Part shown: positions 1 through 11,489 of the stretch, in pieces
Layout of the letters: every line of letters begins with the position of its first letter
Position numbering within the stretch: the first letter of the stretch is position 1
DNA from: Bacteroidales bacterium
GTDB lineage: Bacteria > Bacteroidota > Bacteroidia > Bacteroidales > DTU049
Direction: 5' to 3'
Assembly: GCA_016937255.1 (NCBI GenBank)
Contig: JAFGWG010000109.1
Coordinates: 1-52,736, forward strand
Length of the DNA: 52,736 nucleotides
Program-made: the position numbers and the translations under genes
Notes under the pieces: generated by a model
Database searches by the model: none
The model's input: the letters and a program-made list of their open reading frames with translations, nothing else
Told to the model about the DNA's origin: nothing

Positions 1-38
1 AAAAATTGGGATTTTTAACCCCAATCGAATTTTTATCC

Positions 39-341
39 CTAAATTTGTCTAATCAAAAAGTTGCATTTGTGACTTGAATTCAGCTTCTTTTTTGCTATGT
101 CTTTTAGAAACATAAATGCAGCATAGTGGTCTTTGACCATCAGGTGGTCAGATAGTGGTTTGCCTTTAGCGGTAATATCTTTTTCCAACAATAGTTGAGT
201 GTCATTTTCAGTTAATGAACAGCCTTCTATTTTGGTGGAATTATAAACAATTGAAATCATAGAGAACTTTTCATAATTAATCGCCTCCGATAATTCCAAA
301 TCAAGATATTCTTTGCGCAATATTTCCAGCTCTTTCCACAT
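39..341 (-). pseudogene. Fic-family protein, N-terminal remnant
   Basis: This 100-residue frame resembles the N-terminal helical region of Fic/DOC AMP-transferases. It has STKIEG (about residues 35-40), which fits the inhibitory-helix motif [S/T]xxxE[G/N], followed by the usual LTENDTQLLLEKD and GKPLSDHLMVKDHYAA segments. The catalytic HxFxxGNGR core is absent: the frame leaves the family pattern after about residue 86 and stops at 39-41. Intact relatives are normally 250-400 residues. A -7 box (TATATTTG on the minus strand, 350-357) lies just before the ATG, so the promoter end looks intact while the gene is broken. Only 38 bases lie beyond the stop inside the window, so a frameshifted continuation further left cannot be excluded. 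Confidence 0.55.
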
Positions 342-349
342 AGCAAATG

Positions 350-357
350 CAAATATA
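350..357 (-). promoter_or_regulatory. Bacteroidota -7 element for Fic remnant
   Basis: On the minus strand the bases read TATATTTG, a match to the Bacteroidota -7 consensus TAnnTTTG, 8 nt before the ATG at 341. No convincing TTG -33 element is seen at the right distance. The position implies a transcript with almost no leader. Confidence 0.4.
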
Positions 358-557
358 GTTCAAATTTTGGCTTACACAGTCCTGTTTTTCAGTATTTTGC
401 CTGAAAGTTTCTGTATGCATAATTTGAATTATAAATCTCATTACTATTAATTAAAATAGTTTTTGTAAGAAAAACACAATATTTCAAAACGTGTAAGATT
501 ATAATCCATTAATAATTTATGTTGACCTGTAGATAAATGTTTTCACTTCCTGAAAAA

Positions 558-956
558 TCATTTACGTATTTCAGTAATTTCCCATATCTCATTTTTAAGA
601 CTTACCGTACAGGAACATGCAGGTAAATAAGGTTTATCGTTTTGCTCTTTGGTGTTTTTGAAACTGACGGTTCTTGTATCTCCTGTGCTAAAGAAATCTT
701 CGCCGCTAAAATCAATACGTCCGAAATAAATGGTATCGCCAAATGCTGTTTTGCTGCCTTCAATAACATCAAGAATTACGGCCTGGTATTTTTCACCCCA
801 GCCAACCGGTAAATGCGATGTGATCTTTAGCTTAAAAGTAACAAAATCAGTGTCTTGAGCCAGAGAGGTGAATCCGACAGAAAGGAAGAATGCAAACAGG
901 AGAAATAATTTTTTTATATAAATTTGTTTTGCGATTTGCAACAAAAATTGCACCAA
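558..956 (-). CDS. small secreted protein of unknown function
   Basis: The family of this 132-residue protein is not recognised. A basic start, a hydrophobic stretch (about residues 14-32, KKLFLLFAFFLSVGF) and an AQ-D boundary make an N-terminal signal peptide likely. The mature part is about 98 residues, mostly predicted-beta in character, with a CSC pair near the C-terminus (PACSCTV) that could form a disulfide or bind metal. The native start may lie nearer the KKLFLL segment, since the first ten residues are not typical of a signal peptide. It stands alone, with about 200 bp of non-coding DNA on each side. Confidence 0.55.
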   Translation of the reverse strand: MVQFLLQIAKQIYIKKLFLLFAFFLSVGFTSLAQDTDFVTFKLKITSHLPVGWGEKYQAVILDVIEGSKTAFGDTIYFGRIDFSGEDFFSTGDTRTVSFKNTKEQNDKPYLPACSCTVSLKNEIWEITEIRK

Positions 957-1128
957 ATTTTTTTTGAAGCCTATGCGATTTTAATCCAATCAAAATCCGC
1001 GTCCATAATCTTTGTTCGCACGCTTGACACGCAGTAGGGGTGATCAGCAAATCTATACCTTTGTGTGCTTAATTTTTGTGTTCTCTATGTGCTTAGAGGG
1101 AAACACATCAGCACATCAAATTATTCAC

Positions 1129-1136
1129 TATCTTTG
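1129..1136 (+). promoter_or_regulatory. -7 element upstream of yggS
   Basis: TATCTTTG matches TAnnTTTG and lies 19 nt before the ATG at 1156. A clear TTG -33 is not visible about 19 nt further upstream. Confidence 0.4.
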
Positions 1137-1155
1137 AAATAGTAAAACAGTGCAG

Positions 1156-1830
1156 ATGAGAATCAAGGATAATCTTGAAAGAATACGGGCAAAGCTGCCT
1201 TCAAACGTAAAACTGATTGCGGTAAGCAAAACCAAGCCGGCCGAAATGCTTTTAGAAGCTTATGAAGCTGGTCAACGATTGTTTGGAGAAAATTATGTGC
1301 AGGATTTGATGTCGAAACAGCCGGATTTACCTTCGGATATGATATTCCATTTTATCGGCCATCTGCAAACCAATAAAGTGAAATATATTGCGCCTTTTAT
1401 TTCCTGTATTCAAAGTGTGGATAGTCCAAAAATATTAAAGGAGATTAATAAGCAGGCAGCAAAAAATGATCGTGTAATTGATTGTTTATTAGAATTTTCA
1501 ATTGCTGAAAATGATTCCAAGTTTGGTTTTAATCTCGATGAAGTCCAAGAGTTGCTGAATAGCGAATCTTATCAATCTATGCAAAATATTCGAATTTGCG
1601 GAGTAATGGGCATGGGCAGTTTTTCAGATGATACTGATCGCTCACGCCGTGAGTACAAAAAATTAAAAAGTATTTTCGACCAACTGAAAAAAGAGTATTT
1701 CGCATCTGATGCGTCTTTCAAAGAAATTTCTATGGGCATGTCTGCCGATTATCTTATTGCAATAGAAGAGGGAAGCACCATGGTTCGCGTAGGAACAGAT
1801 ATCTTTGGTGACCGAAATTACAAGGAATGA
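1156..1830 (+). CDS. yggS: YggS-family PLP-binding protein (PLP homeostasis)
   Basis: Single-domain alanine-racemase-like barrel of the YggS/PROSC/YBL036C family, which carries pyridoxal phosphate and regulates B6 and amino-acid homeostasis in the cytoplasm. The PLP lysine is the first K of AVSKTKP (residue 25). Other family signatures are FGENYVQ, HFIGHLQTNK, SMGMSADY and the C-terminal VRVGTDIFG. At 224 residues it has the usual length. The ATG at 1156 was chosen over an in-frame GTG at 1150, because family members begin close to this point. A -7 box TATCTTTG (1129-1136) lies 19 nt before the ATG. The stop region overlaps the beginning of the next frame, whose likely start is at 1857. Confidence 0.93.
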   Translation: MRIKDNLERIRAKLPSNVKLIAVSKTKPAEMLLEAYEAGQRLFGENYVQDLMSKQPDLPSDMIFHFIGHLQTNKVKYIAPFISCIQSVDSPKILKEINKQAAKNDRVIDCLLEFSIAENDSKFGFNLDEVQELLNSESYQSMQNIRICGVMGMGSFSDDTDRSRREYKKLKSIFDQLKKEYFASDASFKEISMGMSADYLIAIEEGSTMVRVGTDIFGDRNYKE

Positions 1831-1856
1831 TTATTGTTTTCTCAAGAGAAAAAAAC

Positions 1857-2960
1857 ATGAAAAAGATATTTTTTATTATTGCTCTGATAAACCTGATTTT
1901 AGTTCAGGCTCAAACCGTTTATCATTATAATATGCCCTGCGGATCAGAGCGGTATTTTGAAAGCGATTCGTCCTTTCTTATTGTACAGGTTCACGATTCT
2001 GATATGGTTTTGGTTCATCACGATGCCGCCGGAATTGTACTTGCTCGTTATGCCGGTAAAATGAGTAGCGCAAATGAGTTTTTTCTTCAACGCGATGATG
2101 AAATGGGTAATGCTGAAGTATATTTTCCTGAGGAAGCAAAGTTGAATTTTACCACAATGGATAATAAAGGTGGGTCTAAAAAGATTTATTTCTATACCGA
2201 AGTTTCTGATCAAAAAATGATTCCATTTGATTATTTATGCTTTACGGCAAATAGAGCAATATATTTCACAGTAGATGAAGGGAAAGATTCTGTAAATATG
2301 TTTATTCAGCGTAGATATCCTGTTCCTGCAAAAAGTTTGTCGAAAGAAGATTCTTTGAAATTTATTGAAGCCATTCTTGCACCGTATAAAGGCTTGCCCA
2401 ACGAATTTCGATACCCTGAAGATATGGTTAAAAATGCCGATATTATGCTGATTCAGGATTATACTTCCATGTATGAAGCTGGCAGTATGGAACCCGATTA
2501 TACTGCTTTTTGGGAAATTAATGAAGATATAGACATCGTGCTTAATTGCGCGGGACTACTGGGTGTTGTAAATTCGCTCTATGAATATACGGGTGGTGCA
2601 CACGGAACATACGGTTCTATGTGTAATGTTTATGATTTTACAACCAGAAATATAGTTGGTTTCGATGATATTTTTGAAGGAGATTATGAACCCGCTCTGA
2701 TTAAGAATATCAATACAAAAGTTCGTGAGCAATTGGAAATTGAAGAAGGGGAATCGCTCTCAGATCGTGGCTTCTTTGTAGATGAAATGCCATTGACCGA
2801 TAATTTCTGTCTCTACACCAATCGTATTATGTTTGTCTACAATATATATGAGGTTGCTCCGTATGTTGTGGGCTCTATTGAGGTAGAAATTCCATACACG
2901 GAATTGAAGGAATTCATTAAGAAAAATGGGCCTATTGATCGATTGATGAATGGAGAATAA
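1857..2960 (+). CDS. exported protein with DUF3298 (RsiV-like) C-terminal domain
   Basis: A signal peptide (MKKIFFIIALINLILVQAQ) starts at the ATG at 1857. The longer frame from 1827 adds ten non-signal residues and overlaps the yggS stop, so the inner start is preferred. The C-terminal third (residues about 225-360) carries GGAHGTYGSM followed by a VYDFTTRNIVGFDDIF-type segment. That combination is typical of DUF3298, the domain of RsiV and related envelope proteins that may bind cell-wall ligands. The N-terminal half is not recognised. The protein is probably periplasmic or secreted; no lipobox or T9SS tail is seen. It follows yggS closely and may be co-transcribed. Confidence 0.75.
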   Translation: MKKIFFIIALINLILVQAQTVYHYNMPCGSERYFESDSSFLIVQVHDSDMVLVHHDAAGIVLARYAGKMSSANEFFLQRDDEMGNAEVYFPEEAKLNFTTMDNKGGSKKIYFYTEVSDQKMIPFDYLCFTANRAIYFTVDEGKDSVNMFIQRRYPVPAKSLSKEDSLKFIEAILAPYKGLPNEFRYPEDMVKNADIMLIQDYTSMYEAGSMEPDYTAFWEINEDIDIVLNCAGLLGVVNSLYEYTGGAHGTYGSMCNVYDFTTRNIVGFDDIFEGDYEPALIKNINTKVREQLEIEEGESLSDRGFFVDEMPLTDNFCLYTNRIMFVYNIYEVAPYVVGSIEVEIPYTELKEFIKKNGPIDRLMNGE

Positions 2961-2989
2961 GCAATATGATGTTTTATAGCGCAGATTTT

Positions 2990-3005
2990 GAAAAAGTACT
3001 TTTTC
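2990..3005. repeat. 16-bp perfect palindrome between convergent genes
   Basis: GAAAAAGTACTTTTTC reads the same on both strands. It lies 30 bp after the DUF3298-like gene and 44 bp beyond the stop of the convergent hflX gene. It has no loop, so as an RNA hairpin it would need to open its centre; a weak bidirectional terminator is possible. Confidence 0.35.
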
Positions 3006-3048
3006 TTCACTTTTGACTTTTTAGATTTAAGTTTTTCAATTTAGCTTC

Positions 3049-4233
3049 TCAATAATAAGGCATAGTGCCAGGATACCTGTGCTCATGCAGGTTTTTCACT
3101 TTGTCAAATAAAACCTTGCGCAGCTTATCCATGTTGCGGTTTTTCAGTGCAGAGATGAAAACGGAATCGCCATGTAAATGACTCATCCAGCTTCGGCTGA
3201 GTTGATCATCAATGTTGAATTCGGAAAAGCTGATTTGATGTGCTTCTTGCATCTTCACAGCATCACATTTATTGAAAACCATTACATAAGGTTTGTCGCC
3301 TGCGCCAATATCATTTAATGTTGCTTGTACTGTTTCGATATGTTCCTCGAAATTGGGGTGAGAAATATCAACTACGTGCATTAGCAGGTCGGCTTCACGA
3401 ATTTCATCCAATGTTGATTTGAAGGATTCTACCAAATGATGAGGCAGCTTACGAATAAATCCAACAGTATCACCAAGTAAGAAAGCAAGATGATCAATTG
3501 TAACCTTGCGTACAGTAGTGTCAAGTGTTGCAAATAACTTATTTTCAGCAAATACATCCGATTTTGCCATGGCATTCATCAAAGTCGATTTGCCAACATT
3601 GGTATAACCCACCAAAGCGACACGAACCATGGCTGCACGGTGTTTTCTTTGAGTTTGCTTTTGCTTGTCGATCTGAATCAGGTCTTTTTTAAGCTTTGAA
3701 ATTCGATCGCGGATAATACGACGGTCGGTTTCAATTTCTTTTTCTCCGGGGCCTTTCATGCCAATTCCACCGCGTTGTTTTTGAAGGTGAGACCACATTC
3801 CGGTAAGACGAGGTAGCAAATATTCGTATTGTGCCAGTTCAACTTGTGTTCTCGAATACGCTGTTTTGGCTCTAGAGGCAAAAATATCCAGAATTAAATT
3901 GGTGCGATCCAGAATTTTGCACTTAAAAGCATTTTCAATATTCCTGATTTGAGAAGCGGAGAGTTCATCATCGAAAATGGCAATATCGATCTCATGCTCT
4001 TCTATATATGCTGCAATTTCTTGAAGCTTTCCGCTGCCCACAAAGCTTTTATTATCAGGGCGATCAAGTCTTTGGAGAAAACTTTTTACTACAATAGCAC
4101 TGGCCGTGCGAGCCAGAAAATCGAGCTCGTCAATATATTCTTTTGCTTGTTCTTCGTTTTGCCGTGCAGTAATGATACCAATTAAAACTGCTTTTTCGTG
4201 CTCTTTTTGAGTACTTATTCCGTTTTTCTTCAC
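3049..4233 (-). CDS. hflX: HflX ribosome-associated GTPase
   Basis: GTPase of the Obg-HflX superfamily that binds the large ribosomal subunit and can split stalled ribosomes. The N-terminal HflX domain (about residues 15-190) contains FVGSGKLQEI, IFDDELSASQIRN and the glycine-rich GGIGMKGPGEKEIETD. The G domain follows: G1 GYTNVGKST (about 208-216), G3 DTVGFI, G4 NKCD and a G5-like SALK. At 394 residues it has normal length. It is the last gene of a minus-strand operon that starts at recJ, separated by only 3 bp from the preceding membrane-protein gene. Confidence 0.95.
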   Translation of the reverse strand: MKKNGISTQKEHEKAVLIGIITARQNEEQAKEYIDELDFLARTASAIVVKSFLQRLDRPDNKSFVGSGKLQEIAAYIEEHEIDIAIFDDELSASQIRNIENAFKCKILDRTNLILDIFASRAKTAYSRTQVELAQYEYLLPRLTGMWSHLQKQRGGIGMKGPGEKEIETDRRIIRDRISKLKKDLIQIDKQKQTQRKHRAAMVRVALVGYTNVGKSTLMNAMAKSDVFAENKLFATLDTTVRKVTIDHLAFLLGDTVGFIRKLPHHLVESFKSTLDEIREADLLMHVVDISHPNFEEHIETVQATLNDIGAGDKPYVMVFNKCDAVKMQEAHQISFSEFNIDDQLSRSWMSHLHGDSVFISALKNRNMDKLRKVLFDKVKNLHEHRYPGTMPYY

Positions 4234-4236
4234 AAA

Positions 4237-4578
4237 TTATCGTTTATTTCCAATACTGAGAAATAGCAACATAGCTGCAGCACTCAGTAGGAAGAGTGCA
4301 AATATAGGGTCGGGGTTTTTAGAAATGAAGTGAAAAGCTTCGAAAAGGGAAACCCCTAACAAAACTAAAGCACTGAAGAGGGTCATACTGTGTTTGGCCA
4401 TAAATCCACCGACGAACAGAAAGACGCTAAACAAAGAAAATATTGCAGCGATATAAAACTGCAATTCTGAAAAATCGAAAGTTTTTACGGTTTCAAAAAA
4501 TGTGCTGTATGCAATTACCGGCATGGATATTCTAAGCATCCATGCGGAAAAAGGGAATAGCGCTTTGGCTGGTCTCAT
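4237..4578 (-). CDS. small integral membrane protein, unknown function
   Basis: This 113-residue protein has three to four predicted membrane segments (about residues 12-28, 40-60, 66-82, 90-108) and no soluble domain. The family is not recognised. It lies between trpS (2 bp) and hflX (3 bp) on the same strand, so it is almost certainly translated from the recJ-trpS-hflX transcript. No catalytic motif is visible. Confidence 0.7.
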   Translation of the reverse strand: MRPAKALFPFSAWMLRISMPVIAYSTFFETVKTFDFSELQFYIAAIFSLFSVFLFVGGFMAKHSMTLFSALVLLGVSLFEAFHFISKNPDPIFALFLLSAAAMLLFLSIGNKR

Positions 4579-4580
4579 AA

Positions 4581-5579
4581 TTATATACTTTTAAATCCAA
4601 TAATATCACGAACCTCACGGATGGTTTGCTGTGCACTTTCTCTGGCTTTATCGCGACCTTGTTTGGCAATTTTCGACAATAATTCATCATTGGATGAAAT
4701 ACTGAGAATTTTATCACGGGTTGGAGCAATAAATTCATTCATGTCTTCAGCCAATTGTTTTTTCATGTCACCATATCGAATATTGCAATCGGCAAACGCA
4801 TCTTTAAAGAATTTCACCGTTTCTTCTTTTGAAACAATATTCATTAATGCAAAGAGGTTTTGAATATAATCGGGAGGTGTAGAGTTCTTTTCAGTAGGTC
4901 CTGAATCTGTTTTGGCCTTCATGATTTTTTTCTTAATAGTGGCTTCATCATCAATTAAGAAAATGGCATTTCCAAATCCTTCAGATTTTCCCATTTTTCC
5001 ACTACCATCCAGTCCGGGAACCTTTACGAGTTCTTCTCCAAAATTATAAGCTACCGGCTCGGGAAAATACTCGGTATTATACATGTGATTGAAGCGCTTT
5101 GCAAAAGTACGGGTCATTTCCAGATTCTGTTCTTGGTCTTTTCCTACCGGAACTTTTGATGCTCGGTGAATTAAGATGTCAGCTGCCATCAGGGTAGGGT
5201 AAGTGAGTAAACCGGCATTAACATTATCCGGTTGTTTTCTTGCTTTATCTTTGAAAGTCGTAACCCGTTGCAATTCTCCTAAATAAGCGTTCATATTGAA
5301 AAACAAATATAGCTCTATGGTTTCAGGTACATCGCTTTGAACGTAAATGCAGGCTTTGTCGGGATCCATTCCGCAGGCAATAAATTCGGCCAATACTTGC
5401 TTTACATTGCCTTGAAGATTTTCTGGAGTAGGATGCGTGGTGAGACTGTGGTAATCGGCAATGAAGAAGTAGCAATCGCTTTCTTCCTGAAGTCGTAGAA
5501 AGTTTTTAAGTGCTCCAAAGTAATTTCCCAAATGAAGATTGCCTGTGGGGCGAATTCCGCTAACTATTTTATTTTTCAT
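4581..5579 (-). CDS. trpS: tryptophanyl-tRNA synthetase
   Basis: Class I aminoacyl-tRNA synthetase charging tRNA-Trp. The ATP-binding HIGH motif appears as HLGN in PTGNLHLGNYFGA (residues 11-23) and the KMSKS loop as KMGKS in GSGKMGKSEGFGN (about residue 195). DKACIYVQSDVPE and the tail region SNDELL are also family-like. At 332 residues it has the usual bacterial length. Its start overlaps the end of recJ by 11 bp (5569-5579), suggesting translational coupling. Confidence 0.96.
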   Translation of the reverse strand: MKNKIVSGIRPTGNLHLGNYFGALKNFLRLQEESDCYFFIADYHSLTTHPTPENLQGNVKQVLAEFIACGMDPDKACIYVQSDVPETIELYLFFNMNAYLGELQRVTTFKDKARKQPDNVNAGLLTYPTLMAADILIHRASKVPVGKDQEQNLEMTRTFAKRFNHMYNTEYFPEPVAYNFGEELVKVPGLDGSGKMGKSEGFGNAIFLIDDEATIKKKIMKAKTDSGPTEKNSTPPDYIQNLFALMNIVSKEETVKFFKDAFADCNIRYGDMKKQLAEDMNEFIAPTRDKILSISSNDELLSKIAKQGRDKARESAQQTIREVRDIIGFKSI

Positions 5580-7347
5580 CGAGAAGGAAGTTGTTGGTTC
5601 GTATGTCTTTGACGTTTAGTTGAATAGTGGTGTTCCCATTCCATTCATTTTCCTCAATAGCATACACAATATCAAAGGGTTTTTGTCCCTCAATCATAGG
5701 ATAGTGATCTGCCATCTGGAAAGCAATTCCGGGGTGACCTAATCCTTTATAGAATTTCTGTGTAACAAAGAGTTTAAGATGTTTTTCTCCTACAATTTTG
5801 GAATACCCGTTATCGTATATTTCATTGGTTTGAAAAATCGGTGACATATTCCCAGGTCCAAAGGGTGCAAATTGCCGTAGCAAATTGAAGAATTTTTTAG
5901 TAATGGCATTGAAATCGAGAAATGTATCCACCTCAATAATTGGGGTTTTGATATCTTCGGTCATATGCTTTTGTGCAAAATCTTCGAAACGTTCTTTGAA
6001 AATATCAAGATTATCTTCTCTTAACGATAAACCAGCAGCGTAAGTGTGTCCACCCCAATGTTCGAGCAAGTCGCTGCATGATTCAATGGCTTCATAAATG
6101 TCGAAACCTCGAATAGAGCGCGCACTTCCGGTAATTAGGCCTGTATCAACCGATTGTGTAAAAACAATGGTAGGTTTATAATAATGTTCGGTTAATCGGC
6201 TGGCAACAATACCAAGAATCCCTTTATGCCAGTTTGGATTAAAAAGAACGGTGCTTAATTTAGACTGATCAATTTCAGAATCGGCAATGGTTTCTAATGC
6301 TTCCTGTGTGGCATTACTATCGAGGCTTTTACGTTCAATATTGAAAATATCAATTTTCGCAGCAATGGTATCTGCTTTTTCTGCAGATTCGCAAACCAGT
6401 AAATCGACCGAGTTTTTGCCGCTTTGAATTCTGCCAGCAGCATTTACTCTAGGGCCAACGATGAAAACCAAATCAGAAACTGAAATCTTTTTGGTGAAAG
6501 AGTAATCGGTTTTATAGATACTGTCTGGACGGCGTTTTATGCCGGCTGTTTTCATTATTGCTTCAATCCCTGCACTGGGATTAGTGTTGAGTACTTTTAA
6601 TCCAAAATGTGCAAGTATTCTGTTTTCGCCGGTAACAGGAACAATGTCTGCAGCTATACTAAGCACAACTTTATCGAGCAAGGGCTTTAATTTTTCAATA
6701 CCAACATTGGTTTTTTGAGCAAGACCCTGAAGGAGTTTAAAGCCAACTCCGCAGCCAGATAAATCATCGAATGGATAGGAACAATCTTTTCTTTTTGGAT
6801 CGAGTACCGCAACAGCATCGGGGATTTTATCGCCAGGCCTGTGGTGATCGCAAATGATAAACTCAATATTTTTCGTTTTTGCGTACTCAATTTTTTCAAC
6901 AGCCTTTATACCGCAATCAATAGCAATAATAAGAGGCATGCCGTTTTCTGCAGCATAATCAATACCCTGTTTTGAAATTCCATAGCCTTCAGTATATCGA
7001 TCTGGGATATAATAATCGAGTGGAATTTTATATCTGGAAAGAAAAGAATATAAAGTGGCTACTGCAGTAGTGCCGTCAACATCGTAATCGCCATAAAGTA
7101 GGATTTTTTCCTTGCGCTCAATAGCCAATAAAATTCTGTCTACGGCTTTATCCATGTCCTTCATTAGAAAAGGATCGTGAAGTTCTTCCAATGTTGGGCG
7201 GAAAAAACTCTTGGCTTTTTCATAATTGTCAATACCACGTTGGGCAAGCAAATTTGCAATTTGCCTGTTGACATTGATTTGGCTCATAAGGTGCTGAATG
7301 ACTTCTTCATCACCTTGCTCTTTTAATACCCAACGTTTGTTTAACAT
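5569..7347 (-). CDS. recJ: single-stranded-DNA-specific exonuclease RecJ
   Basis: A 5'-3' ssDNA exonuclease for recombination and mismatch repair. Phosphoesterase motifs are GDYDVDGTTA (near residue 90), IAIDCGIKA, and ICDHHRPGD. DHHA1 carries GGHTYAAGLSL, and a C-terminal OB-like region ends the protein. The 592-residue start at ATG 7347 is preferred. A longer frame opening with TTG at 7368 begins inside the -7 promoter element, so it cannot be the translated start. First gene of the recJ-trpS-membrane protein-hflX operon. Confidence 0.95.
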   Translation of the reverse strand: MLNKRWVLKEQGDEEVIQHLMSQINVNRQIANLLAQRGIDNYEKAKSFFRPTLEELHDPFLMKDMDKAVDRILLAIERKEKILLYGDYDVDGTTAVATLYSFLSRYKIPLDYYIPDRYTEGYGISKQGIDYAAENGMPLIIAIDCGIKAVEKIEYAKTKNIEFIICDHHRPGDKIPDAVAVLDPKRKDCSYPFDDLSGCGVGFKLLQGLAQKTNVGIEKLKPLLDKVVLSIAADIVPVTGENRILAHFGLKVLNTNPSAGIEAIMKTAGIKRRPDSIYKTDYSFTKKISVSDLVFIVGPRVNAAGRIQSGKNSVDLLVCESAEKADTIAAKIDIFNIERKSLDSNATQEALETIADSEIDQSKLSTVLFNPNWHKGILGIVASRLTEHYYKPTIVFTQSVDTGLITGSARSIRGFDIYEAIESCSDLLEHWGGHTYAAGLSLREDNLDIFKERFEDFAQKHMTEDIKTPIIEVDTFLDFNAITKKFFNLLRQFAPFGPGNMSPIFQTNEIYDNGYSKIVGEKHLKLFVTQKFYKGLGHPGIAFQMADHYPMIEGQKPFDIVYAIEENEWNGNTTIQLNVKDIRTNNFLLDEK

Positions 7348-8066: not shown

Positions 8067-8207
8067 TTATTAAGCAACTATTTTTATTAAACTTTCGTAC
8101 AATTTTCTTGTCAAATGGTTATCAAAAGGGCTACACGGGGAAAAATGTTTTTATTTTGTTGTTGAATTTTGTATTTTTATGGACTTTTTGTTTTAAAACA
8201 TCGGTGT

Positions 8208-9482
8208 ATGGCAAAATATTTACTTTATGTAAGGGTTGTTTTTTTTGCGCTTAATCTTCTGCCATTTTGCTTTGTAAATGGTCAAAATGTAGTGAATAAC
8301 GGAGATGGTATAGTTATTAATAGTGGCGCATATCTCGTAATAGGTGGCGATTATATTAATCATACGGCTACTCAGGATGGGTTTGTTGATCTTGATGGGA
8401 GTATGCTGGTATATGATGATTTTTTAAATTACGCAAACAATGATGTTTTTATTAATGTTGAAGCAATTCCCGATGGTCTTGTGCTCATGCCTTCAGCTCA
8501 GCAGCAAACAATCGGGGGTAGCCATGAAACGGGTTTTGAAAACCTCCACGTAGTTGCTGGTACTAAGCTTCTCGATTTTGATAAAGCACGGGTGGAAGGA
8601 GTTTTTACTCTGGCATCTGTTTTTGATTTAAATCGCAATACTCTAGAGATTACCAAAAGCAATACATCGGCCTTACATTATGTTTCGGGGTATCTTTATG
8701 CGGAAACAGATCCAATACAGGGACTTGGTGTACTTCGTTGGCATATTGATGATCAACTGGGTTTTTTCTATGTTCCTTTTGGTTCTGGATTGGGAAATTA
8801 TAATGATCTTGATTTGATGTTTGCAGTTCAAACTCCTGCTGTAGGAAATGGATATGTCGATTTTTCAACTTATCCTACTCCTCCCTCAAATGCGCCGCTT
8901 CCTGATAATGTAACAACTCTTGCACCATTTACCGCTGAACTTACTATAGATCGCTTCTGGGTAATTGATGCTACGCAGGCTCAAAAACCGTCAGCCAGTA
9001 TCGAGTTTTCATATACTCAAATCGATTGCAACGGAATTAAGGAAAATACACTCAAGGCCATCAGATATAATGATGACAATAGCACTTGGGATGATTGGGG
9101 TCCTGATGGTCAGATTGATATCACCGCAAATACATTGCTTACTTCACAAGTTGCAAGTACAGATTTGTATAAAAGTTGGACGCTCACCGGGCAAACAGAT
9201 GAGGATTTCATTTTTATTCCAAATACATTTTCACCAAATCATGATGGGGAGAATGATGTTTTCTATCCAATTATTGGAAATGAGGAAGTAAATGAGTATG
9301 TTTTTCGTGTGTTTGATCGCTGGGGAACTGAAATATTCTACTCCACAGCAACGAATGAAGGTTGGGATGGATTCTTTAAAACTGCCGAATGTCCCCAAGA
9401 TGTTTATGTTTATATTCTGGAGTACAGAAGTGTAAATGGAGAGAAAGTTCACAAATACGGACATGTCAATTTAATTCGATAA
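8208..9482 (+). CDS. T9SS type B sorting domain (gliding-motility-associated, CHU_C-like) surface protein
   Basis: An exported protein of about 424 residues. A signal peptide runs from the ATG at 8208 to about GQN; a longer frame from 8169 adds 13 residues. The middle (about 25-330) is beta-rich and not assigned. The C-terminal ~90 residues form the type B sorting domain: IPNTFSPNHDGENDVF, then FRVFDRWGTEIF, GWDGFF, and a terminal VYVYILEY block. Such domains direct secretion by the type IX system and surface attachment in Bacteroidota. It is the first of three closely spaced plus-strand genes (gaps 16 and 11 bp). Confidence 0.88.
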   Translation: MAKYLLYVRVVFFALNLLPFCFVNGQNVVNNGDGIVINSGAYLVIGGDYINHTATQDGFVDLDGSMLVYDDFLNYANNDVFINVEAIPDGLVLMPSAQQQTIGGSHETGFENLHVVAGTKLLDFDKARVEGVFTLASVFDLNRNTLEITKSNTSALHYVSGYLYAETDPIQGLGVLRWHIDDQLGFFYVPFGSGLGNYNDLDLMFAVQTPAVGNGYVDFSTYPTPPSNAPLPDNVTTLAPFTAELTIDRFWVIDATQAQKPSASIEFSYTQIDCNGIKENTLKAIRYNDDNSTWDDWGPDGQIDITANTLLTSQVASTDLYKSWTLTGQTDEDFIFIPNTFSPNHDGENDVFYPIIGNEEVNEYVFRVFDRWGTEIFYSTATNEGWDGFFKTAECPQDVYVYILEYRSVNGEKVHKYGHVNLIR

Positions 9483-9498
9483 TTAAAAAAACAATCAT

Positions 9499-11160
9499 AT
9501 GAACAGGATTTTTACAAAACAGGCTTTATTGGTAATGGCGCTTCTATTGATTTTAGGAGGTAGAACAGGCTTTGCCCAGAATAATGTAGCCATAAATTCA
9601 ACAGGAAACCTCCCTGATCCTTCTGCAGCCCTTGATGTATCTGCTGATGATAAAGGAGTTTTGATTCCAAGAATGAGTGCCGTTCAGCGTTTGGCTATTG
9701 CCGCTCCCGCAGATGGACTAATGGTTTATGATACAGACACTATGTGTGTTTTGGTTTATCAGGCTGGAACTGCGAGTTGGTTTTCACTTTGCAATTCATC
9801 TAGTGGTGTTATAGGTGCAGACGGCTTATCGAGTTTAGTTAAACCTACCATTGAGCCTGCAGGTGCAAACTGTGCAAATGGTGGTTTTATGCTTGAGTTT
9901 GGTCTCGATGCAAATAATAATGGAATTCTCGATGCAGGGGAAGTGAATGCTGCATTAACGAGATATATTTGCCATGGTGCTGATGGCGCTACAGGCCCTG
10001 CCGGTCCAGCCGGTCCAACAGGTGCAACTGGTGCAACCGGAGCTACTGGTCCTGCCGGAGCAACCGGTCCACAAGGTCCTGCCGGCCCTGCGGGTACGGG
10101 TTATAATACCGTTGCATTAACTTCTCTTGAGCCTGCAGGTGTAAACTGCCCAAATGGTGGGGTTTTACTTCAGTTTGGTCTCGATGCAAATAGTAATGGT
10201 GTGCTTGATCCCGGGGAAGTAGATCCTTCATTATCAAGATATGTGTGTAATGGAGCTGTTGGTGCAACCGGCCCTGCTGGCCCAGCCGGAGCAACTGGTC
10301 CCGCCGGACCCGCCGGACCCGCCGGACCAACCGGAGCAACAGGAGCAACTGGCCCTGCCGGTCCTGCCGGAGCAATGGGCGCAACTGGTCCTGCCGGTCC
10401 AACTGGAGCTACTGGTGCTACAGGTCCTCAAGGCCCTCAAGGTCCTGCCGGTCCTCTTGGTTGTACTAATGCCAATTATGTTCTGAAAAACGATGGTGTT
10501 CAGGGTGTTTGCTCTATTATTTATGACAATGGTACTAATATTGGAATCGGAACAGCAGCTCCAACTCAAAAACTCGATGTAGTTGGCGCAGTAAAATTTT
10601 CAAACGCTTTAATGCCAAATAATAATGCAGGTACTTCAGGTCAAATACTGCAATCTCAAGGAGCTGGGCTTCCTCCAATTTGGGAAACTCCAACCAATAT
10701 TGCTATTTATGGTAACCATGTAGATAATGTAACGCTGACCAATTTAGTTACTACAACAAGTACCAGCTGGGTAGATATCCCTGGAATGTCTAGAACTTTT
10801 ACTCCTGTTCATAATAAAATATACATCTTTGCGTCGCTTGTTGCCCGTTTGGCAAATAGTAGCGGTATGGCTCAATTCGGTCAAGCTATTTGTAGTGCTC
10901 GTATTTTGGTAAATGGTGTTGAGGTTGCTACTGCAGCAACTGTTGTAACAGATTTCGATGAGGATTATTGGGGAGGTCAATATGTTGTAACTTCAGGTAT
11001 GATTTCTTTCTCCGGAGTTCCTGTAAATTGTACTGCCGGAGTACCTGTGGTTGTTAAAATGCAATGGAGCGCAGCTGTGAGTTGGGCTACTTCACCATGG
11101 AGACTTGAAATTAGCCCGGGTTCCGCAAATGATCACTGTACAATGACATTGTTCGATTAA
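9499..11160 (+). CDS. secreted collagen-like (Gly-X-Y) protein with EF-hand-like modules
   Basis: 553 residues with a signal peptide (to about residue 26, GFAQN). Residues about 35-105 have the LDVSADDKGVLIPRM-type head seen in many Bacteroidota surface proteins. Two similar ~50-residue modules follow (about 110-160 and 202-252). Each has paired cysteines and a canonical 12-residue EF-hand-like loop, DANNNGILDAGE and DANSNGVLDPGE. Each module is followed by Gly-X-Y repeats rich in GPA, GAT and GPT (about 160-200 and 252-321). A NIGIGT..TQKLDVVG linker and a C-terminal ~200-residue domain complete it. No T9SS tail is seen, so the export route past the periplasm is uncertain. Triple-helix formation is inferred from composition. 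Confidence 0.85.
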   Translation: MNRIFTKQALLVMALLLILGGRTGFAQNNVAINSTGNLPDPSAALDVSADDKGVLIPRMSAVQRLAIAAPADGLMVYDTDTMCVLVYQAGTASWFSLCNSSSGVIGADGLSSLVKPTIEPAGANCANGGFMLEFGLDANNNGILDAGEVNAALTRYICHGADGATGPAGPAGPTGATGATGATGPAGATGPQGPAGPAGTGYNTVALTSLEPAGVNCPNGGVLLQFGLDANSNGVLDPGEVDPSLSRYVCNGAVGATGPAGPAGATGPAGPAGPAGPTGATGATGPAGPAGAMGATGPAGPTGATGATGPQGPQGPAGPLGCTNANYVLKNDGVQGVCSIIYDNGTNIGIGTAAPTQKLDVVGAVKFSNALMPNNNAGTSGQILQSQGAGLPPIWETPTNIAIYGNHVDNVTLTNLVTTTSTSWVDIPGMSRTFTPVHNKIYIFASLVARLANSSGMAQFGQAICSARILVNGVEVATAATVVTDFDEDYWGGQYVVTSGMISFSGVPVNCTAGVPVVVKMQWSAAVSWATSPWRLEISPGSANDHCTMTLFD

Positions 11161-11171
11161 ATACAATTGTA

Positions 11172-11489
11172 ATGAGAAGATTTGTTTTAATCATATCGGT
11201 TTTTATTCTGACAGGCTTTTGTGCAAATGCTCAGCAAACTGCGGTCTCAAAATCAGCTGCTGCTTCAGTAGAAGTAAGAAATCAGCCTCCTGACCAGAAT
11301 ACTGCAATGAAGCTTTTGCGACATAATCAAATTATGGCTTTGCCTGATTCACAGAAAATATCTCCCACACATTGTTTTGGTCAGGTGGATACAAATATGG
11401 CAACTAGCCCGCGTTTTCTGGGGTGGGATACCATTATTACACCAACAATGCGATATTATCCTCCTCCAAGACCTGAGGAACAAGACTAA
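11172..11489 (+). CDS. small exported protein, unknown function
   Basis: A 105-residue protein with a clear signal peptide (MRRFVLIISVFILTGFCANAQ). The mature part is about 84 residues, polar, with a proline-rich end (YYPPPRPEEQD). No family is recognised. It starts 11 bp after the collagen-like gene, so it is probably in the same operon and may act with the two preceding surface proteins. Its stop is 1 bp from the stop of the convergent aminotransferase gene. Confidence 0.65.
   Translation: MRRFVLIISVFILTGFCANAQQTAVSKSAAASVEVRNQPPDQNTAMKLLRHNQIMALPDSQKISPTHCFGQVDTNMATSPRFLGWDTIITPTMRYYPPPRPEEQD

Follow-up and report, generated by a model that had tools for sequence, protein, structure and literature searches.

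Organisation of the collagen-like gene

The window, by which we mean the whole stretch of 52,736 nucleotides that was analysed, contains an open reading frame at 9499..11160 on the + strand that starts with ATG and, according to the list of open reading frames (ORFs), encodes a collagen-like protein of 553 amino acids. From its N-terminus the protein consists of an N-terminal domain, a DUF7151 module, 14 Gly-X-Y triplets, a second DUF7151 module, 24 further triplets and a C-terminal part of 230 amino acids. The features of the locus are as follows.

8205..9482, + strand: gene for a T9SS type B secreted protein, the partner gene (CHU_C 1.8e-15 in Pfam; TIGR04131 1.1e-14)
9499..11160, + strand: collagen-like gene, 553 aa (Pfam DUF7151 4.5e-33, Collagen 8.6e-15)
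9499..9576, + strand: signal-peptide-like start, aa 1-26 (hydrophobic stretch, by eye)
9577..9798, + strand: N-terminal domain of ~75 aa, aa 27-100 (blastp matches in other proteins)
9823..9978, + strand: DUF7151 module 1, aa 109-160 (Pfam; AlphaFold2 model)
9907..9942, + strand: calcium-type loop 1, DANNNGILDAGE, aa 137-148 (loop pattern)
9976..10101, + strand: collagen stretch 1, 14 Gly-X-Y triplets, aa 160-201 (Pfam; triplet scan)
10099..10254, + strand: DUF7151 module 2, aa 201-252 (Pfam)
10183..10218, + strand: calcium-type loop 2, DANSNGVLDPGE, aa 229-240 (loop pattern)
10252..10467, + strand: collagen stretch 2, 24 Gly-X-Y triplets, aa 252-323 (Pfam; triplet scan)
10534..10635, + strand: tail-fibre-like linker, aa 346-379 (PHROG 9942 tail fiber protein, 4.7e-5)
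10702..11157, + strand: C-terminal domain, aa 402-553, probable TNF/C1q-type jelly roll (AlphaFold2, Foldseek, VIA)
11172..11489, + strand: small ORF, 105 aa, with a signal-peptide-like start (by eye), the last gene before a strand switch

The preliminary description of this DNA, made from the letters and their reading frames, had reported an ORF with two modules, each a cysteine pair plus a 12-residue calcium-type loop leading into a Gly-X-Y run, and this architecture is present as described. We take it to be real because shuffles of the same protein give no such runs and hardly ever such a loop: the loop pattern occurs twice against an expectation of 0.0003 per shuffle, and the longest Gly-X-Y run reached 10 triplets (20,000 shuffles in each case). 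Within the window, the loop pattern is confined to one of the 54 stop-to-stop frames of at least 120 aa, that of the collagen-like gene. The protein scores 113.4 bits against DUF7151 (PF23657, which has no function in the Pfam catalogue; curated cut-off 27.2), in two stretches, and 54.7 bits against the collagen family PF01391 (cut-off 27.2), with uninterrupted runs of 14 and 24 triplets. Membership of the SclA, SclB or Lcl families was rejected, as the scores lie below the NCBIfam cut-offs (36.9 of 400, 58.1 of 325 and 58.2 of 500 bits, respectively).

The N-terminal domain is common to many other secreted proteins of these bacteria. A blastp comparison of residues 1-112 with the ORFs of the collected loci gave 35 matches at E <= 1e-3, a count that takes in copies of the window gene, and six other loci in the window's own genome match the domain. 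Two loci of this genome (L003 and L005) combine it with a C-terminus that by eye resembles the tail-fibre-type peptidase S74 chaperone domain. No CHU_C or TIGR04131 sorting domain was detected in the collagen-like protein at E <= 1 with Pfam and NCBIfam.

DUF7151 modules carry a conserved calcium-type loop

The two modules of the window protein are identical at 29 of 52 positions, and in each of them a pair of cysteines (C125/C158 in module 1, C217/C250 in module 2) brackets the loop. Both loops have the residues of an EF-hand-type 12-residue loop, namely D1, D/N3, D/N/S5 and E12. A profile seeded by the two window copies and run on the ORFs of the collected loci gathered 188 non-redundant modules from 73 proteins; the loop count was restricted to the 176 full-length ones, which cover at least 80% of the columns. 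Conservation of the loops in homologues, whose absence the preliminary description had named as grounds for refutation, was borne out in this collection, with all four loop residues present in 176 of 176 full-length modules gathered with a profile that itself includes the loop, so that modules that have lost the loop are under-represented. Position 6 of the loop is Gly in 147 of the 176, and both cysteines are found in 172; the four modules without the full pair comprise two neighbours in one phage protein, one alignment shift and one truncated module.

An AlphaFold2 model of the module, built from 27 module sequences, has a mean pLDDT of 96.1 and contains three strands (positions 4-11, 21-28 and 41-50), with the loop placed between strands 2 and 3 together with a short HHH turn. 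The term 'EF-hand-like', used in the preliminary description, thus suits the sequence of the loop but not the predicted fold: on the strand-loop-strand model (pLDDT 96) we rejected the helix-loop-helix arrangement of an EF-hand for DUF7151, and retained the loop type. No Pfam EF-hand family matches the window protein at E <= 1, and two DUF7151 relatives (in locus L038 and in phage Colly_1) show weak EF-hand matches below the cut-off.

Comparison of the module model with the PDB gave no Foldseek match at E <= 0.001 (17 matches at E <= 10, the best at 5.3), and the best VIA hit had a Z of only 2.7. The modelled fold therefore has no match in the PDB, although this alone does not make it a new one. 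The top BFVD hit came from phage Colly_1 of Maribacter (E 8.4e-3; TM 0.85, taken by query length) and is a protein homologous to the module in sequence, with 48% identity. Loops of the Dx[DN]xDG type bind Ca2+ in strand-loop-strand settings too, according to the available part of PMC3123361. The loop of DUF7151 fits calcium binding, and from its sequence the module probably holds a Ca2+ site and a disulfide.

The collagen stretches are short and nearly uncharged

Collagen stretch 1 directly follows module 1, and its last triplet, GTG, overlaps the start of module 2; stretch 2 ends with the triplet GCT. Over the 38 triplets, the X positions are filled mostly by P (21) and A (15) and the Y positions by T (16) and A (14), and a single one of the 76 X/Y positions is charged. 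To our knowledge, bacterial collagen chains lack hydroxyproline (Hyp), and Hyp-free stretches this short would be weak alone. With stretches that are short, nearly uncharged and Hyp-free, stability must come from elsewhere.

The number of triplets differs between relatives, a point that the preliminary description had proposed to check: against 14+24 in the window, three relatives of the same family have 15+20, 9+15 and 5+4. The last of these indicates that at least the length of the collagen is not essential, and stretches of 5 and 4 triplets are too short for a triple helix. One could accordingly read the Gly-X-Y stretches as flexible, extended linkers that form no stable triple helix, a reading in keeping with the expected lack of hydroxyproline, the shortness of runs of 14 and 24 triplets, their one charged residue and the still shorter stretches of that relative. 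We consider it improbable, since glycine spacing is perfect throughout both runs, a head of a trimeric type is predicted at the C-terminus, and three of the four family members have runs of 9-24 triplets.

The C-terminal part is likely to end in a jelly-roll head

The C-terminal part begins with a linker and continues into a predicted globular head. The match to phrog_9942 spans residues 24-57 of this part, and 39 IMG/VR loci match it, mostly only within its first ~70 residues. The AlphaFold2 model of the C-terminal part was built from 2 sequences only and has a mean pLDDT of 48.4; even at this low confidence, it shows a sandwich from about aa 402. In Foldseek, this low-confidence head model (pLDDT 48) matched the N-terminal lectin domain of BC2L-C best (E 2.8e-5) and also the TNF-like lectin PLTL. 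In VIA comparisons, the same model (pLDDT 48) scored a Z of 11.5 against PLTL (9ib6; rmsd 2.9, 124 aligned residues, 14% identity), 8.7 against a globular domain of C1q type (5hba) and 8.4 against the F-BclA / BclA-type tip (9h38); birnavirus VP2 and chlamydial Pgp3 also reached Z values of 9-10. When seven head sequences were combined into a profile and searched against the PDB, TNF and C1q chains were not among the results, the single match being the designed protein 8pjw (E 3.3e-4). Judged by the model, the fold class of the head is likely a TNF/C1q-type jelly roll, and a lectin function would be a guess.

Heads of the same family also occur without DUF7151. One such protein (L011) has no detected DUF7151 or collagen run, and two others (L238 and L105) carry collagen only.

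A T9SS type B gene accompanies the collagen-like gene in this family

The collagen-like gene lies between the T9SS type B gene, which ends 16 bases upstream, and the small 105-aa ORF, which starts 11 bases downstream; the preliminary description had placed it correctly, between a T9SS type B gene and a small ORF with a signal-peptide-like start (by eye), and had suggested both flanking proteins as partners. The start of the upstream gene at 8205 (ATG) was picked by eye, the program call being a TTG at 8169. The first of the two suggested partners is kept in three relatives, whereas for the second no homologue was found in the collected loci. A T9SS type B homologue adjoins the collagen-like gene in HGW-Bacteroidetes-6 (L037) and in genomes G001 and G004, the order being reversed in G004, so that in this family the T9SS type B gene stands beside the two-module gene in 4 of the 4 genomes that have that gene. 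The genome of the window also encodes SprA of the T9SS translocon. G001 contains a further, one-module gene (L235), which has no T9SS neighbour in the 6 kb read.

For the small downstream ORF, no Pfam or NCBIfam family was found, and the ORFs of the collected loci included no homologues other than its own copies. Its place is taken by a different 115-aa ORF in G001, and in the HGW-Bacteroidetes-6 relative no same-strand ORF of at least 90 aa lies between the collagen-like gene and the next gene. With no homologue in the collected loci, and with its place empty or differently filled in relatives, we dropped the small protein as a part of the system.

Families other than this one also have such pairs. 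In three loci (L230, L233 and L237), a T9SS homologue is adjoined by a protein that combines the same N-terminal domain with short runs of collagen, and in L239 such a collagen-like protein is separated from the T9SS homologue by two genes; CHU_C or TIGR04131 was confirmed for the T9SS homologues of these regions. Among 14 regions with a T9SS homologue, a sample chosen not at random (the window, L037 and 12 of 14 fetched regions), a protein with the N-terminal domain is the direct neighbour in 7, lies two genes off in 2 and is missing in 5; two of the regions, L232 and L241, run up to the end of a contig. Although the pairing is consistent within this family and is met again outside it, 5 of the 14 regions lack it, and we rejected it as a general rule.

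The L239 region has some further content. The two genes between its collagen-like gene and its T9SS type B homologue (5260-6967) are FISUMP-like, one of them (6185-6967) being Fib_succ_major (PF09603) and the other recognised by eye; the T9SS type B homologue is then followed by a gene that by eye is PorP/SprF-like.

The surroundings of the gene also bear on a possible phage origin. The protein could be of a phage-derived tail-fibre type that the cell has kept, or be part of a prophage or tail-like particle: it has PHROG tail-fibre matches, mostly through its collagen, its linker at aa 346-379 resembles phage fibres, and in Maribacter phages a protein with DUF7151 and collagen is annotated as tail fiber. 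Against this, the neighbours that were tested (trpS, recJ, a gene of the RdgB/HAM1 type, a sugar aminotransferase, a D-Ala-D-Ala ligase and the T9SS type B gene) are housekeeping or surface genes, not phage genes, the protein has a start that by eye resembles a signal peptide, and its relatives keep the T9SS neighbour. Judged by these neighbours, we regard a phage-type protein as unlikely here.

DUF7151 alternates with collagen in several phyla

Searching other Bacteroidota for the module, as proposed in the preliminary description, found DUF7151 in 4 of 296 sampled genomes, the window's own included. All in all, 4 of the 59 genomes in and around the window's family have it (the window's, HGW-Bacteroidetes-6, G001 and G004), and the other 55 in this sample of the window's order lack it. 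By comparison, the domain was present in 91 of 146 sampled genomes of Myxococcota (the phylum of Pyxidicoccus) and in 8 of 249 of Pseudomonadota (the phylum of Dokdonella), the centre genome being counted in each case. Altogether 109 ORFs were reduced to 74 non-redundant DUF7151 proteins by dropping those whose first module is contained in another protein; 55 of them have a run of at least 4 triplets and 19 do not, so DUF7151 is not made only for collagen.

Alternation of the two elements is frequent in these proteins. In 11 of 30 Myxococcota proteins, which come from best-scoring loci, a module is directly flanked on both sides by runs of at least 8 triplets; the locus lists for Myxococcota and Pseudomonadota hold the best-scoring loci and are not random, and one set of loci was found with a query of collagen between two modules, in which collagen neighbours are over-represented. 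With D for DUF7151 and numbers for triplets, the layout is 20-D-63-D-26-D-24 in Pyxidicoccus fallax, D-10-D-8-D-13 in a betaproteobacterial MAG, 9-D-143 in a Fluviicola MAG and 31-D-34 in one putatively viral IMG/VR contig. The alternation of DUF7151 and collagen is thus a recurrent design, common in Myxococcota. The preliminary description had called calcium-stiffened stalks of this kind unusual, a view that does not survive the comparison, given that the module is catalogued in Pfam and that many Myxococcota, together with some Pseudomonadota and Flavobacteriales, have it in alternation with collagen.

Several of these loci have features of their own. Pyxidicoccus fallax has four neighbouring frames with 3-4 DUF7151 matches each within ~7 kb (G526:C110:31530-37810). 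Maribacter phages contribute eight records, all of the Molly/Colly group and with one DUF7151 match each. The Colly_1 protein (L227, 5932-7902), annotated as tail fiber, has six DUF7151 stretches along with collagen triplets of the GAD/GED type; two adjacent modules have lost both cysteines together, and its start looks lipoprotein-like by eye, which would be odd for a fibre. A Flavobacteriales MAG (L041, frame 2..3583) encodes a protein in which six 43-residue modules of the VLNGITNP...WPAGVSLV type alternate with runs of 17-28 triplets over aa 365-925, and which also has one DUF7151. In L050 (frame 4521..6410), 28-residue spacers of the NGNGTFT..YSDG type, by eye probably beta hairpins, alternate with collagen at aa 263-402; this protein likewise has one DUF7151, and the N-terminal domain of the window protein recurs near its C-terminus.

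This variety bears on what the modules do. They might be side-mounted binding knobs on a passive collagen rod, with Ca2+ stabilising only the fold of each knob. Tandem DUF7151 without collagen would be in line with such a role, as seen in L029 with four modules in a row and in 7 of the 30 Myxococcota proteins, which have no runs of at least 4 triplets, and so would the presence of other small modules in the same place between collagen runs, of 43 residues in L041 and of 28 in L050. The most conserved DUF7151 positions, however, are structural (the Cys pair, GG and the loop), and no near-invariant column hints at a binding surface, which argues, if not strongly, against passive-rod knobs; we rate that role as unlikely and prefer modules that act on the collagen itself.

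Discussion

The best explanation overall, to which we give about an even chance of being right, sees the gene product as a secreted collagen-like adhesin, probably a homotrimer, with calcium-/disulfide-stabilised DUF7151 clamps. Domain order, conservation of the loop and the cysteines, the predicted fold of the module and the gene pairing in this family are the computed support for it, from which we infer Ca2+ binding, the trimer, clamping, surface display and glycan binding.

In the working that we propose, trimer formation is most likely the task of the C-terminal jelly-roll head, from which the two collagen stretches would begin to zip up, much as in C1q or BclA. Each DUF7151 would be a three-stranded knob of ~50 residues closed by a disulfide and by Ca2+ in a loop of the Dx[DN]x[DN]G type, and outside the cell, at high Ca2+, the three knobs of a trimer would become rigid. 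Rigid knobs may then act as clamps or spacers that hold the chains in register, protect the short, nearly uncharged helices and set the length of the stalk. The head might bind a glycan or another surface, while the N-terminal domain, possibly with a T9SS partner, would attach the stalk to the cell; the partner at the surface is likely to be the T9SS type B neighbour.

A wider claim, possible but doubtful in our judgement, is that DUF7151 would in general be a calcium-/disulfide-locked joint at which the triple helix is interrupted but the trimer stays together, and which sets register and stiffness with Ca2+, having spread across Myxococcota, Bacteroidota, Pseudomonadota and phages. On this view, one calcium-responsive stalk with a lectin-like head would be the window protein.

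Several known systems resemble parts of this protein. BclA has a collagen stretch with a jelly-roll tip (PMC8968730, in the parts available; F-BclA is the subject of the preprint PMC11952670), and the stalks of BclA/F-BclA and C1q likewise have a collagen stretch followed by a C-terminal TNF/C1q-type domain. In the available portions of the accounts compared, BclA and C1q stalks are not described with DUF7151-like calcium modules between collagen runs; the window protein differs from them also in its Gram-negative Bacteroidota setting with a T9SS neighbour. In the E. coli EPclB prophage fibres, a Pf2 repeat between two collagen stretches appears as an extra globule by microscopy, as the available part of PMC3368898 reports, so that both proteins have two collagen stretches parted by a small non-collagen unit. 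Pf2 is a different family from DUF7151, however, EPclB is a phage protein, and the word 'calcium' is absent from the available text of PMC3368898. In otolin-1, an animal collagen of the C1q family, Ca2+ strengthens the collagen trimer (PMC8211825, in the available part); there it acts in the C1q head, whereas the window protein has its calcium-type loops in modules between the collagen runs. The Dx[DN]xDG loops outside EF-hands share both the linear motif and the strand-loop-strand setting of the DUF7151 model, but the available text of PMC3123361 is without the word 'collagen', and no solved fold matched the DUF7151 model well.

Within PF23657, the window modules share the Cys pair and the loop, to which we add, as proposals, a calcium-binding role for the loop, the strand-loop-strand fold and a function with collagen. 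Collagen, the head type and DUF7151 are each already known or catalogued. Among the literature matches listed, no paper deals with DUF7151 or with calcium modules between bacterial collagen runs, and none describes DUF7151 as a module with a calcium loop that alternates with collagen in bacteria.

What keeps short, Hyp-free bacterial collagens folded also matters in practice for work on recombinant collagen. One natural solution is suggested by a small, widespread module that sits between collagen runs and has a conserved calcium-type loop. If true, this would provide a predicted biochemical property for a Pfam domain carried by 91 of the 146 sampled Myxococcota genomes.
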